DNA of 59,972 nt from Ignavibacteriota bacterium (GTDB taxonomy: Bacteria > Bacteroidota > Ignavibacteria > UBA10030 > SZUA-254), in contig JANYJZ010000024.1 of assembly GCA_025358305.1 (NCBI GenBank), positions 1 to 59,972 on the forward strand, read 5' to 3'. Shown here in pieces: positions 26,755 to 31,661 of the stretch. The position numbers and the translations under genes were made by a program. Every line of letters starts with the position of its first letter. Positions within the stretch are counted from its first letter, which is position 1. The notes under the pieces are model-generated. The model was not told the origin of the DNA and searched no databases. It was given only the letters and a program-made list of their open reading frames with translations.

Positions 26755-28167
26755 TTAGCGCCTGCCGAACCTGCCGACGGCCCAACATGTTAGGCTGACG
26801 GCAAGACCTGGGTACATCGGCTCGATGCCGAGGGGATACGAGGAATTGCCGCCCGCGTACGTCCCGGCGATGAGCCAGCCGAGCGAGACAAGCCAGCCGA
26901 AGGCCATGGCGCCGAATGCGTAGTGCGGGGCGATCGTCAGGCGCGGGAAGTACGATGCCATGAGGGGAACCAGGAGTCCGGGGATGACAACGGTCCCGAT
27001 CGTATACCACATCTGAATGACGCTCGGCATCCAGAGGGCAAGTGCGACCGAAAAACAGAACGATACGACGAGCCCGATGTTGATCATGCGCTTGACGGGG
27101 AGACCCGAGAACCTCTGCTGACTGTCGCGCCCGCCCGGACCCGTGAGCCGCAGGTAGATGTCGCGTCCAAGCGTCTGCGCGGAGACGAACGCAAGCGTAT
27201 TCAGCGTCGACATGATCGTCGCGAGCATCCCGCAGTAGAAGAGCCCCTTCGCCACCGGCGGCAGCACCGCCTCGGCGAGCATCGGATACGCCGTGAGTGG
27301 CTGGGCGAGGCCGGGGAGTGCGGCGCGCGCGTAGAGCCCTGCGGTCGCCGTCATGGCGTCGAAGATGAACCAGAAGATGATGGACACGAAGATCCCGTTC
27401 CGGGCGGTCTTCCCGTCCTGTGCGGCATAGCATCGCTGATGGAACGCCGGATCGACGAGCGTCCAGAGCGCGATGAAGAACCAGACGAGGATGAACTGCA
27501 CGGAATTGCCCCCGTGCCACGTGAGGTGGAGGGGCGGGAGGGACGAGCGCAGGAACTCCAACCCGCCGTACTGCATGTACGCGAACGGGAGGATGACGGC
27601 GAAGCCGAGGAACATGACGAAGAACTCGAATACGTCCGTCTGGACATCCGACCGAAAGCCCCCCACAAAGAGGTACGACATCGTCACCACGGCGGTCACG
27701 ACGATGGAGAGGAGCAGGCTCCAGCCGAAGAGCATCTGGAGGAAGATGCTCAGCATGAGGATGTACGGCGCCGGCGTCATGAGGATGAATGTGAGGAATG
27801 CGCCGAGAAGGGCGGTCTTCCGGTCATAGCTCGCTTCGAGCTTGTCGGGGATCGTGAAGAGGTTCGTTGCACGGACCCTGCCGGCAAGGAAGAACGCGAA
27901 CACGGCGGCGAAGATGTAGTACGGGACTCCTTGGATGACCCAGTTCGAGATGCCGTAGCGGTAGGAGAATTCTCCCACGCCGAGAATGCCGCCGTACCAG
28001 GTCGAGACGAGCGTCATGACGAAGATCGGGAGCGTGAGTGTGCGTCCGGCCAGGAGAAAGTCGTCCTCGCCGCCGGTGGCGCCCTTCGCGGAGCGGAACC
28101 CGACGACCAGGACGGCGCCGAAGTAGAGGACGAGGAGGGCGATATCCGGGAGTGCGAGGTGGATCAT
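26755..28167 (-). CDS. SSS-family sodium:solute symporter, probable thiamine permease
   Basis: A 470-aa polytopic protein with about 13 helices, the fold size of the solute:sodium symporter family. The TM1 region (residues 4-30, ending GFRSAKGATGGEDDFLLAGRTL) and STWYGGILGVGEFSYRYGI are SSS signatures. It is the last gene of a TPP-riboswitch operon with a TonB receptor and thiamine pyrophosphokinase, and its ATG overlaps the kinase stop (ATGA). This context points to thiamine (or a precursor) uptake across the inner membrane; SSS-type 'ThiV' permeases have been predicted as thiamine transporters by comparative genomics. The substrate is inferred from context only. Confidence 0.88.
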   Translation of the reverse strand: MIHLALPDIALLVLYFGAVLVVGFRSAKGATGGEDDFLLAGRTLTLPIFVMTLVSTWYGGILGVGEFSYRYGISNWVIQGVPYYIFAAVFAFFLAGRVRATNLFTIPDKLEASYDRKTALLGAFLTFILMTPAPYILMLSIFLQMLFGWSLLLSIVVTAVVTMSYLFVGGFRSDVQTDVFEFFVMFLGFAVILPFAYMQYGGLEFLRSSLPPLHLTWHGGNSVQFILVWFFIALWTLVDPAFHQRCYAAQDGKTARNGIFVSIIFWFIFDAMTATAGLYARAALPGLAQPLTAYPMLAEAVLPPVAKGLFYCGMLATIMSTLNTLAFVSAQTLGRDIYLRLTGPGGRDSQQRFSGLPVKRMINIGLVVSFCFSVALALWMPSVIQMWYTIGTVVIPGLLVPLMASYFPRLTIAPHYAFGAMAFGWLVSLGWLIAGTYAGGNSSYPLGIEPMYPGLAVSLTCWAVGRFGRR

Positions 28168-28796
28168 GCGCGCCGGGAGAGGTGCCTTCGGTAGACGAGG
28201 AGCGTGCCCGTCCGAACGCTCACAATGACCGCCCGGCCGGTCGCCCGGTTGCTCGTGCCTTCGCGCACGCCGAGTTCGAGCGCGCCGTTCCGCAGAGGGT
28301 AGAGGAGGTTCTTCGTGGTCACCCCCGTGCACCGTTCCAGCGGAATGAGGGATATGAGCTCCCGCTTCCGCGTCTGGAGAGAGATCCGCTTTCCCACCAT
28401 GGAGAGCTCGCCGTCGTCGTCGATGAACGTGAGGGCGCAGCGGTAGCCGAACTTCTTGAAACATCCGAGGTTCCCGGCGGTGTGATCGATCCTTCCTCCG
28501 GTGGCCCCGAGGACGTCGATGGAGGAGCATCGACGCCGGAGGCAGTAGCGGATGGCCTTTTCAAGATCGGTGCTGTTCTGGTCCGCGATCCGGAGCGTCG
28601 TCACGCCTGAGAAACGCTTTCGCACCGATGGCCGTATCGAATCGAGGTCCCCGAGAATGACGTCCGGCCGGAGCGCAAGGCGCCCGGCGTGGTTCGCGCC
28701 GCCGTCGGCGCAGACAACGAGGTCCGCTCGGCCGGCGATCCGCCGTGCGAGCGTTCTGGACGGGGGAACCCCGTTGGCGAAGATGAGGGCGTTCAC
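28164..28796 (-). CDS. thiN: Thiamine pyrophosphokinase
   Basis: A 210-aa enzyme that makes thiamine diphosphate from thiamine and ATP. The catalytic N-terminal domain has CADGGANH (about residue 33), PDVILGDLDSI (the GDxDS metal/ATP motif) and QNSTDLEKAI (DxxDxE-type motif), followed by LGATGGRIDHTAGNL. The C-terminal thiamine-binding beta domain has ISLIPLERCTGVTTKNLLYPL and TSNRATG, matching the ISLIP...GLkYpL...SN pattern of TPK. It overlaps the receptor gene and the symporter gene by 4 nt each, so all three are coupled. Its product is the ligand of the riboswitch upstream, closing a feedback loop. Confidence 0.95.
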   Translation of the reverse strand: MNALIFANGVPPSRTLARRIAGRADLVVCADGGANHAGRLALRPDVILGDLDSIRPSVRKRFSGVTTLRIADQNSTDLEKAIRYCLRRRCSSIDVLGATGGRIDHTAGNLGCFKKFGYRCALTFIDDDGELSMVGKRISLQTRKRELISLIPLERCTGVTTKNLLYPLRNGALELGVREGTSNRATGRAVIVSVRTGTLLVYRRHLSRRA

Positions 28797-31057
28797 AGGT
28801 GCACCGTCAAGCCGACGAGGTAGCTCCGCTCCGCCGCGGGGAAGAAGGCGGTCCCTTCGCCGCTCATGAAGTAGAGCGAGTTCAGGACGTTCCGGACCTC
28901 GCCCCGAAGCGTCAGCTCCGTTGTGCCGAACGGGGGAAGCGCGACGGACCCCGTCGCGTCGAGGACCGTGTAGGCGTCGTTCCGGCGCCCGTCGTTATTC
29001 GTGTTGTCGGTGTGGAACGCGCCGACATGCTTCAGGAGGACCGATCCGGCGCAGTCCCCGGAGCTGTACGTCAGCCGCAGGTTGCCGAGGAAGTCGGGGA
29101 ATCCCGCGATCGGATTGCCGTCAAGGGCGACAGGGACGCCGTTATCGTCGAGGACGGTGTACCGGATGAGCCTGTTGTGGGAAAAGGCGGCGTTGCCGCC
29201 GAGGGTGAGCGAGTTGGTCAGACGGACCTCTCCGTCGAACTCCACCCCCGCGTGCCGGGTATGCTCGGCGTTGCCGGTGACCGGCTGGCCGAAGATGTCC
29301 ACCTGGCCGCTCTTGACGAGTTCGTTGAAGAACTCCATCCAGAAGGCGCTGACGTTGAGCCTCGCGCCGTTCGCGCGCCACCCGGTCCCCGCCTCGAGGT
29401 CGAGGAGCCGCTCCGGCTTGGCCAACGGCCGGTCGAACCGGTACCGAACGGCGCCTCCGGCCGTGTCGGCCTCAAACTGCGGCGTCGCCCCGAAGTACGA
29501 GTCCTCGGCCGCGTAGAGGTTCCGGAGCGTCGGCTCCCGGGAGGTGTACGCCCCCGAGAAGTAGGCGTGCCACGCCTCGTCGATGTTATAGTTGAGGCCG
29601 ATTCTCGGGTTCACGAAGAAGTAATCGAGGCTGAAGTTGTTCCCCAGGAACTTCTCGGCGCGGATCGCGTAGCGGTTCCGGACGGCCTGAACATCGGTCA
29701 TGAGCGTCAGATTTGGGGTCAGTTCGCGCATGTTGTGCGCGAAGACGGAAAAGATGTCCCTCGCCCCTTCGTACTCGTAGAAGTGGTAGTCGGGATCGAA
29801 GTTCTGCGGGAGCGCTTCCGCGTACTGGATCTTCCCCCAGTGGGTCGAGCGGTGGACGCGGAGTTCCACGCCGAGCGTGAGCGTGTTGTCCTCTCCGCGA
29901 AGTTCGACGCGGGGGAGCCAGCCCCACTGGCGGTTGCCGACAAAGGCCCGGACGAGCGTGTTGGCGGGGTTCTGCGATGCGGGGATGCCGTAGGCCGAAC
30001 CGAGCCGGAGGAGCGACGTGTCCGCCCAGGAGGCGTCGTAATCAAAGTACCCTTCGCCGGTGTAGTAGAAGAGCGTCTGCGAGAGCGTCGCCGTCGCGCT
30101 CACTCGCCACTCTTGCATGAATTCGTAATGCGGCTGGGCGAATGACTCCGTCTCCTGGGTACGGCGCCGCTGTGCGGACTGGTACCCCGTCCCTGCGGAA
30201 TCGGTCTCCCATGCGGAGAGGTTTTGCCGGCGCAGGTCCGGGTCCCCGTTGACGAACTTCGGCAGACCTTCGTAGGCGAGGCCGTCAGTGATCGGTCCTC
30301 CGAAGAGGTGGAACCGGAGCGTCATGTCCTTGTAGATCCGGACGCCGCCGAGGAAGTAGGAGTCCATCGCGACCCAGGAGTTGTCGCGGTAGCCTTCGCT
30401 CAGGGTCCGGCCCAGCTTGCCGTAGAGCATGTACGCGCCGTCGATGAGACCCGAATTGATCGTCGCGGTGTACCTCCTCGTGGCGAGCGCCACACTCGGA
30501 TGGAGGCCGCCGCGTTCCTGGAAGCCGAACATCGATTCGAGTGCGATTCCCTTGGGCCGGGCGAACGGGTTCGTGACCAGGTTGATCGACCCTCCGATCG
30601 CCGGGGGGCCGTAGAAGGCGCTTCCTGCGCCGCGCTGGACCTGCATCTGCTCGGTGCTCGACATGAGGTCCGGGAAGTCGATCCAGTAGACGTTGTGGTC
30701 CTCCGGGTCGTTTTGCGGGACGCCGTTGACCATGACGGAAAGCCTCCGCTGGTCGAACCCCCGCAGAGTGACATAGTTGTATCCGATCGCGTTCCCGTTC
30801 TCGGAGTAAAAGGTCATCGATGGGAGTTCGGAGAGGGCGGCGGGGATGTCCTGCACGGAATAATGCAGCCGGAGCTCCTCAGCGCCGAGGTTGGAGAACG
30901 TCGCGGGCGTCGAACGCTCGGTCGCGAGCGTCGGATTGACGATCATCGGTGCGAGGATATAGACGGTGTCCCGTAGGGCGGTCGTGTCGGTTTGAGCGGC
31001 GGCACTGCCGCCAAGGGCCATCATGGCCAGCGCAATTCGAAGCAGGGAGGGTCTCAT
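28793..31057 (-). CDS. TonB-dependent outer-membrane receptor, probable thiamine importer
   Basis: The protein has 754 residues: signal peptide MRPSLLRIALAMMALGGSAAAQ, a plug domain from about residue 45 to 165 (GYNYVTLRGFDQRRLSVMVNG, QVQRGAGSAFYGPPAIGGSINLVT) and a beta barrel ending in a C-terminal aromatic strand (YLVGLTVHL). It lacks the CarboxypepD_reg N-terminal extension common in Bacteroidota glycan receptors. ATG 31057 has a GAAGG 8 nt upstream; the ORF can extend nine codons further into the terminator hairpin, which is unlikely. The TPP riboswitch ahead of it suggests it imports thiamine or a thiamine compound. The substrate is inferred. Confidence 0.92.
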   Translation of the reverse strand: MRPSLLRIALAMMALGGSAAAQTDTTALRDTVYILAPMIVNPTLATERSTPATFSNLGAEELRLHYSVQDIPAALSELPSMTFYSENGNAIGYNYVTLRGFDQRRLSVMVNGVPQNDPEDHNVYWIDFPDLMSSTEQMQVQRGAGSAFYGPPAIGGSINLVTNPFARPKGIALESMFGFQERGGLHPSVALATRRYTATINSGLIDGAYMLYGKLGRTLSEGYRDNSWVAMDSYFLGGVRIYKDMTLRFHLFGGPITDGLAYEGLPKFVNGDPDLRRQNLSAWETDSAGTGYQSAQRRRTQETESFAQPHYEFMQEWRVSATATLSQTLFYYTGEGYFDYDASWADTSLLRLGSAYGIPASQNPANTLVRAFVGNRQWGWLPRVELRGEDNTLTLGVELRVHRSTHWGKIQYAEALPQNFDPDYHFYEYEGARDIFSVFAHNMRELTPNLTLMTDVQAVRNRYAIRAEKFLGNNFSLDYFFVNPRIGLNYNIDEAWHAYFSGAYTSREPTLRNLYAAEDSYFGATPQFEADTAGGAVRYRFDRPLAKPERLLDLEAGTGWRANGARLNVSAFWMEFFNELVKSGQVDIFGQPVTGNAEHTRHAGVEFDGEVRLTNSLTLGGNAAFSHNRLIRYTVLDDNGVPVALDGNPIAGFPDFLGNLRLTYSSGDCAGSVLLKHVGAFHTDNTNNDGRRNDAYTVLDATGSVALPPFGTTELTLRGEVRNVLNSLYFMSGEGTAFFPAAERSYLVGLTVHL

Positions 31058-31081
31058 CGTTTCAGCCTTCACAAAAACGCA

Positions 31082-31120
31082 CATGCCGTTTCCTGACCTG
31101 AGGGATCAGAAAACGGCATG
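31082..31120 (-). terminator. Riboswitch expression-platform hairpin (intrinsic terminator)
   Basis: On the minus strand the 15-nt arms (31120-31106 and 31096-31082) pair with one G-U wobble around a 9-nt loop. The T-tract TTTTT follows about 4 nt after the stem. It lies between the TPP aptamer and the receptor start codon, so ligand-bound RNA would end here and spare the operon. The 4-nt offset of the T-tract weakens the call slightly. Confidence 0.7.
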
Positions 31121-31129
31121 AACATATCG

Positions 31130-31220
31130 TGCACCATTTCCCTACGCTGGTACTAACCAGGTCAGGTTCATAAGGGTATGCTCTCAGTCCCGCTGTTTGT
31201 TCGGGACACCCCTAACGGTT
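31130..31220 (-). promoter_or_regulatory. TPP riboswitch (THI element)
   Basis: On the minus strand the conserved thiamine-pyrophosphate aptamer can be read: AGGGGTG start, CTGAGA (31187-31182), ACCCTTATGAACCTGA with ACCTGA (31167-31162), and GCGTAGGGAA near 31146. The P3 arm is CCCG/CGGG-like (GTCCCGAACAAACAGCGGGAC). It begins only a few nt after the predicted transcription start and is followed by a terminator hairpin, so TPP is expected to switch off the thiamine uptake operon. Confidence 0.93.
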
Positions 31221-31228
31221 GAACAGGT

Positions 31229-31260
31229 GCAATATAGCGGTCGGAGCGTTGGAATGCAAA
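31229..31260 (-). promoter_or_regulatory. Promoter of the thiamine operon
   Basis: Minus-strand TTTG (31260-31257), 20 nt, TATATTGC (31236-31229). Transcription would begin near 31222, just ahead of the aptamer, giving a leader of about 165 nt. Confidence 0.75.
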
Positions 31261-31406: not shown

Positions 31407-31661
31407 ATGGCACAGCATCTCTCCGCGGAACGTCAAGCGCGCAAGTCCGTCAAGCACCGCACACGCAACCGGGCGTACATGTCCAAGATGAAGACCTCCA
31501 TCAAGAAGGTCCGGGCGATGAAGGAAAAAGAGAAGGCGTCAGTGGAATTGAAGCAGCTCATGAAGCTGCTCGATCAGCTTGCCTCGAAGGGGATGATCCA
31601 CAAGAACAACGCGGCGAACAAGAAGTCGAGCCTTACGAAGTATGTGAACTCGTTGAAGTAA
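31407..31661 (+). CDS. rpsT: Ribosomal protein bS20
   Basis: An 84-aa, very basic protein. MAQHLSAERQARKSVKHRTRNR is the S20 N-terminus that binds 16S rRNA, followed by SKMKTSIKKVRA and the C-terminal NNAANKKSSLTKYVNSLK, given here only in part as IHKNNAANKKSSLTK. The length is within the normal 80-90 range. ATG 31407 was taken over an upstream frame start. GAGG lies 3 nt ahead and GAAGG 12 nt ahead. It is a single-gene unit with its own promoter and a strong terminator. Confidence 0.96.
   Translation: MAQHLSAERQARKSVKHRTRNRAYMSKMKTSIKKVRAMKEKEKASVELKQLMKLLDQLASKGMIHKNNAANKKSSLTKYVNSLK

Follow-up and report, generated by a model that had tools for sequence, protein, structure and literature searches.

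The window, i.e., the whole 59,972-nt stretch of DNA analysed here, carries on its minus strand a TPP aptamer followed by a terminator and by genes for a TonB receptor, a thiamine pyrophosphokinase (TPK), and an SSS symporter, in this order and with successive genes overlapping by 4 nt. The features of this putative operon are as follows.

31231-31260, minus strand: promoter-like site, TTTGCA-18-TATATT (sigma-70-like pattern)
31122-31223, minus strand: TPP riboswitch aptamer, RF00059 (Rfam, 68.1 bits); P1 predicted between 31214-31219 and 31133-31138
31108-31142, minus strand: candidate antiterminator of 11 pairs, 31132-31142 (aptamer 3′ strand) with 31108-31118 (terminator 5′ arm)
31082-31120, minus strand: predicted intrinsic terminator hairpin of 17 pairs followed by a T-run (expression platform; pattern and fold)
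28793-31057, minus strand: TonB-dependent outer-membrane receptor, likely start at 31057 (the ORF opens at 31084)
28164-28796, minus strand: TPK, GTG start, 4-nt overlap with the receptor gene (domain matches)
26755-28167, minus strand: sodium:solute symporter (SSS/SLC5), 470 aa, 4-nt overlap with the TPK gene (Pfam match, structure model)

The receptor/TPK overlap is the GTGA at 28796-28793, with the GTG of TPK inside the receptor stop, and the TPK/symporter overlap is the ATGA at 28167-28164, with the symporter ATG inside the TPK stop. The receptor likely starts at ATG 31057, which is preceded by GAAGG and opens a signal peptide, because the first ATG of its frame (31084) falls within the terminator. 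Divergently upstream of the operon, on the plus strand, a gene for a small basic protein (31407-31661) resembles ribosomal protein S20 by eye.

Gene products of the operon

Both the Plug (E 1.8e-16) and the beta-barrel (E 4.2e-28) domains scored over their cut-offs in the product of the first gene, which on this domain pair is a TonB-dependent receptor. The second product matched the catalytic and B1-binding domains (PF04263 and PF04265) and reached 150.4 bits with TIGR01378, versus an equivalog cut-off of 76.4 bits; by its domains and this score, it is a thiamine pyrophosphokinase. The third product matched PF00474 (105.3 versus 22.8 bits) and scored under the cut-offs of all five NCBIfam models that it matched, including that of the SSS superfamily (TIGR00813; 105.8 versus 184 bits). 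Because TIGR00813 is stricter than the Pfam model, we kept the protein in the SSS/SLC5 family, on its PF00474 match and SSS fold, with no named subfamily. PanF, PutP, and other named carriers were rejected as identities, since all NCBIfam cut-offs were missed.

The AlphaFold2 model of the symporter had a mean pLDDT of 87, with values under 50 at residues 31-38, 59-61, and 347-351. Among the matches listed, SLC5 structures aligned to the model with Z scores of 24.7 to 39.6; the closest was human CHT1 (Z 39.6, rmsd 3.1, 455 aligned residues, 17% identity), and the best non-CHT structure was SGLT1 (Z 32.9). Aromatic cage residues of CHT include W62, Y91, and W406 (PMC11589582, PMC13220886). A phmmer alignment with the CHT chain 9rws (E 4.1e-15), which we infer to be sfCHT, placed W57, Y83, and W387 of the symporter on W99, Y126, and W445, in agreement with the cage numbering of the bacterial sfCHT, where these residues correspond to W62, Y91, and W406 of CHT1 (PMC13220886). 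Three of the five CHT cage aromatics thus align in the symporter, and none of the three varies among the 16 rows compared; W57 adjoins the weakly modeled stretch at 59-61. The CHT cage residues W141 and W254 lack an aromatic partner in the alignment, where W176 is matched to T131 and W298 to a gap. The thiazolium of thiamine may be held in such an aromatic cage. In TM8, S320 and T321 align to the serines of SMCT1 as a hydroxyl pair, which we take to be of the Na2 site; the first position is S, and the second T or S, in all 16 rows. The symporter is probably coupled to sodium.

The leader as a predicted TPP switch

The RF00059 match on the minus strand (31223-31122; 68.1 bits versus a gathering score of 54.3, E 2.7e-11) spans model positions 1-105, that is, a complete aptamer, and is the sole Rfam match above gathering in the whole 59,972-nt window. 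A genome-wide search found no other TPP riboswitch. By score and over its full length the element belongs to the RF00059 family, and it is predicted to bind TPP. Two-sided changes occurred at 7 of the 18 predicted aptamer pairs in an alignment of 29 sequences, which holds all but one (L030, left out for a long insert) of the 30 aptamer loci taken from the 36 genomes with an aptamer.

A terminator-like hairpin with a T-run at about 31077-31072 lies directly 3′ of the aptamer. Because shuffled sequences give 0.5 such terminators and 0.4 such promoter-like sites by pattern alone, both assignments rest on position and fold; several other members of the family also show TTTGC...TATATT at a similar spacing ahead of their aptamers, as judged by eye and unscored. 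The leader folded better than 200 of 200 dinucleotide shuffles (z -4.25). Within it, the aptamer 3′ strand (31142-31132) can form 11 pairs with the terminator 5′ arm, and part of the same strand makes P1 (6 pairs); this antiterminator pairing had a p of 0.025 against 200 mononucleotide shuffles. The folding energies given here include no ligand energy. The ligand-free transcript cut at the terminator loop, before the 3′ arm, formed 9 of the 11 antiterminator pairs at -35.6 kcal/mol versus -33.0 with P1, and the full leader adopted the terminator and P1 at -60.9 versus -44.7 kcal/mol with the antiterminator forced.

By prediction, then, the window holds a TPP riboswitch of the transcription-termination type, in which a terminator competes with an antiterminator that uses the aptamer 3′ strand. 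The direction of control would be that of the usual TPP-off transcription switch. At low TPP, the aptamer 3′ strand would pair with the terminator 5′ arm and allow transcription readthrough; at high TPP, P1 would close, the terminator would form, and the operon would be turned off. Of the 36 aptamer loci, 18 have a good terminator, versus 5 of 180 shuffles, and 14 show antiterminator pairing at p<=0.05; the shuffles preserved base composition but not dinucleotide content, which makes them the less stringent kind of control. The switch of other members may therefore differ, and relatives may use other expression platforms.

Conservation, wider occurrence, and probable thiamine need

A TPP aptamer was found in 36 of 40 genomes (the window's own and 39 relatives of the same order), one in each, with 29 over the gathering score; three of the four genomes without one are 79 to 83% complete, and the fourth is 91% complete. 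The receptor gene lies downstream of the riboswitch in 35 of the 36 loci, the remaining one (G001) stopping at a contig edge. The 35 readable loci (the window and 34 order relatives) comprise 29 with receptor, TPK, and SSS in this order, four with receptor, TPK, and a PnuC-family gene, and two with receptor and SSS, so that TPK is within the operon in 33. The aptamer and terminator ahead of receptor, TPK, and SSS genes with 4-nt overlaps, as described for the window by an earlier sequence-only reading, were thus confirmed by the Rfam score, the domain matches, and this recurrence. Gene overlaps are not universal among the 29 loci; in G033, about 1 kb separates receptor and TPK. At the four exceptional loci (G016, G017, G026, and G035), a PnuC/PnuT-family protein (PF04973, E 1.8e-53 to 1.9e-58) occupies the SSS slot; of the 5 genomes among the 40 with a PF04973 score above the cut-off, four have the match in that slot.

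Some loci of the order depart from this layout. In G020 (L053) and G030 (L064/L081), genomes listed as 99 to 100% complete, the riboswitch precedes a divergent receptor (33 to 34% identity) and an SSS gene, and no PF04263 (TPK) match was found anywhere in either genome. In G015 (L052) and G025 (L049), thiM-thiE-thiL lies between riboswitch and receptor in the same operon; the three proteins were identified by search for G015. Apparent fusions of TPK to SSS (G039/L075) and of receptor to TPK (L084) were discounted because of runs of N inside the joined ORFs.

A scan of species genomes yielded 533 stretches encoding SSS relatives, of which the best 80 were kept, a choice biased to close orthologues. 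Most of these stem from Ignavibacteria and further MAGs labelled Bacteroidota, with others from Kryptonia, KSB1, Neomarinimicrobiota, and Armatimonadetes. Among the best 80 of 533, TPK adjoins SSS in at least 73, the receptor is there too in at least 63, an aptamer (model R1, trained on relatives) in at least 59, and all parts occur together in at least 54. The counts are lower bounds, as L075 and L084 did not count because of their N-joined ORFs, and 59 of 60 aptamer matches were used, that of L135 having been dropped for lying some 7 kb off on the opposite strand. Where at least 3.9 kb was available upstream of the SSS ORF, all parts were present in 51 of 58 loci, again a lower bound. When 14 loci were rechecked at the Rfam gathering score, only L135 and L143 passed, and the R1 match of L140 failed. 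The sequence-only reading had called it rare for SSS-type thiamine permeases and a TonB receptor to share one unit; these counts and the locus of Caldithrix abyssi (PMC5317091) show otherwise. Two loci, L126 (a Neomarinimicrobiota MAG) and L138 (an uncultured bacterium), have a TPK-SSS pair with no receptor or TPP aptamer match in about 6 kb upstream.

Putative membership of the receptor in the OMthi (BT2390) subfamily was approached indirectly, through the receptor profile (A4). At E<=1e-60, this profile had matches in 128 of the phylum's 198 genomes, many of them covering only about the first 510 positions and perhaps not orthologues. Forty loci were chosen from the 128, excluding the order members already studied and preferring higher scores, and all 40 carry a TPP aptamer. 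Thirteen of them have the receptor-TPK-SSS layout (11 of the 20 chosen from the same class versus 2 of the 20 from beyond it), one has receptor and a PnuC-family gene, and 26 have no TPK, SSS, or PnuC match in the stretch, one of these running into masked N and one into a contig end. Beyond the order (L156-L195), receptor genes are thus often solitary, each with a TPP riboswitch of its own.

The window's own genome (3.2 Mb, 42 contigs) is listed as 100% complete. ThiC was matched in none of the 40 genomes, with 13 of 14 control genomes positive, and neither ThiE nor ThiG had a match in the window's genome, as expected from the dependence on uptake that the sequence-only reading had proposed to check by a search for thiC, thiE, and thiG; ThiE scored over its cut-off in 2 of the 40 genomes, both of family f2. 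Six matches to the transketolase pyrimidine-binding domain indicate that TPP enzymes are present. Since these enzymes coexist with a lack of ThiC, ThiE, and ThiG matches, TPP would come from salvage, and the source bacterium seems to be a thiamine auxotroph. The genome also encodes a full ThiL (311 bits versus a cut-off of 184; G000:C16:114091-115056, L150 and L152) on a contig other than that of the operon. ThiL scored over its cut-off in 16 of the 40 genomes, all of f1 (the window's family) and f2, and adjoins a thioredoxin-like gene in the three loci whose ORFs were read (L152, L153, and L154). Thiamine uptake plus TPK leaves this orphan ThiL unexplained.

Proposed function and comparison with known systems

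Sequence and comparison supply the aptamer, the predicted terminator, the gene families, their conservation, and the lack of biosynthesis gene matches. The best explanation of the locus is a TPP-repressed operon for thiamine uptake and activation in a bacterium, probably of the Ignavibacteria group, that is unable to make thiamine, an explanation to which we assign a probability of roughly 0.88. The receptor would take scarce thiamine across the outer membrane with energy from TonB, the SSS protein would move it through the inner membrane together with sodium, and a single step by TPK would then yield TPP. One TPP-controlled transcript for uptake through both membranes and pyrophosphorylation, as first proposed from the window, is hence supported as a prediction. 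Calling the operon self-contained is too strong, as TonB-ExbBD must be supplied from outside the operon. The substrates of receptor and symporter, which the sequence-only reading had left to inference, are here also assigned from context, thiamine being the probable one for each.

For the symporter, thiamine is suggested by its place in a TPK operon under a TPP aptamer, the lack of a precursor-pathway match, the exchange with PnuT-family proteins, and reported thiamine transport by a fungal SSS protein. The best evidence is the PnuT/SSS exchange in the same slot: a Bacteroides PnuT transported thiamine when expressed in E. coli (PMC5613172). The fungal SSS protein Dur31 was assigned as a thiamine transporter from the pyrithiamine resistance of deletion strains (PMC5997356). 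Counting against the explanation, thiamine reportedly left the expression of TPP-riboswitch transport operons in Bacteroides thetaiotaomicron unchanged, and deleting one transporter at a time did not affect growth (PMC5613172).

The orphan ThiL and the TPK-less genus would be accounted for if thiamine monophosphate were taken up. The receptor-symporter pair would then import it (or TPP cut to the monophosphate in the periplasm) for ThiL to convert to TPP, with TPK as a second route. ThiL is indeed over its cut-off in far more genomes of the order than ThiE, and G020 and G030 combine receptor and SSS under the riboswitch with a ThiL and no TPK match. However, TPK belongs to the operon at nearly all readable loci, families f3 to f6 share the operon and have no ThiL above the cut-off, the ThiL of the window's genome sits on another contig, and a phosphate group would be ill-suited to a choline-like aromatic cage, which makes this account quite improbable for the window. 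A restricted form, in which the pair of f1 and f2 imports the monophosphate in addition, or does so in the TPK-less genus only, with phosphorylation by the orphan ThiL, is somewhat less improbable but still unlikely; if true, the TPP riboswitch would control an operon whose SSS symporter takes up a phosphorylated vitamin. Import of the precursor HMP (or another pyrimidine) by the pair, as proposed for ThiV of SAR11, a TPP-riboswitch-controlled SSS protein that likely carries HMP (PMC11452348), would suit G015 and G025, where the thiM-thiE-thiL genes could make HMP usable if ThiD is present, but it is very improbable here, because HMP would be useless in a genome with no ThiE match and hence no known route from HMP to thiamine, ThiE is confined to two of the 40 genomes, the TPK of the operon acts on thiamine, and PnuC-family proteins stand in for SSS at four loci.

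Thiamine uptake under TPP control thus remains the preferred reading, and its layout is already described and common in relatives. No account of the operon in Ignavibacteria appeared among the titles and abstract openings of the open-access literature matches listed, and the consulted parts of PMC3766115 and PMC9530715 contain nothing on it. Caldithrix abyssi, of a different phylum, likewise has a TPP riboswitch before a TonB receptor, with SSS and TPK in the locus (Cabys_3975-3977), and like the window's genome has an incomplete thiamine biosynthesis (PMC5317091). The PnuT form, OMthi-pnuT-tnr3, also has a TPP riboswitch, and most of the gut Bacteroidetes genomes in the study that describes it carry the three genes as one operon; double mutants support a thiamine transport role. 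Its inner-membrane step is PnuT rather than SSS, and B. thetaiotaomicron synthesizes thiamine as well and has its operon in separate pieces (PMC5613172). The ThiV/SSSP/SSSQ symporters of SAR11, Methylobacillus, and algae resemble that of the window in being SSS proteins, many under TPP riboswitches, but are assigned to HMP or undecided and are described, in the parts consulted, without a TonB receptor (PMC11452348, PMC4260697). Whole-cell uptake data of SAR11 assign ThiV to HMP, and the ThiV/SSSP clade signature is Tyr/Asp/Phe at SiaT positions 78/139/254 (PMC11452348); the invariant Y83 is a candidate match for the clade Tyr. Dur31 is an SSS/SLC5 protein under a TPP riboswitch and a reported thiamine transporter, but it is eukaryotic and its riboswitch acts on splicing (PMC5997356). 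CHT1 (SLC5A7) offers the closest fold among the matches listed and three aligned cage aromatics, but its substrate is choline, identity is 17%, and two cage aromatics are unmatched. Against this background, the analysis predicts that the bacteria of this order, known mostly from metagenome assemblies, require thiamine for growth, and it singles out an SSS subfamily, backed by the PnuT-family exchange in its slot, as a likely inner-membrane thiamine carrier, for which the alignment with the choline cage points to candidate residues for mutation.
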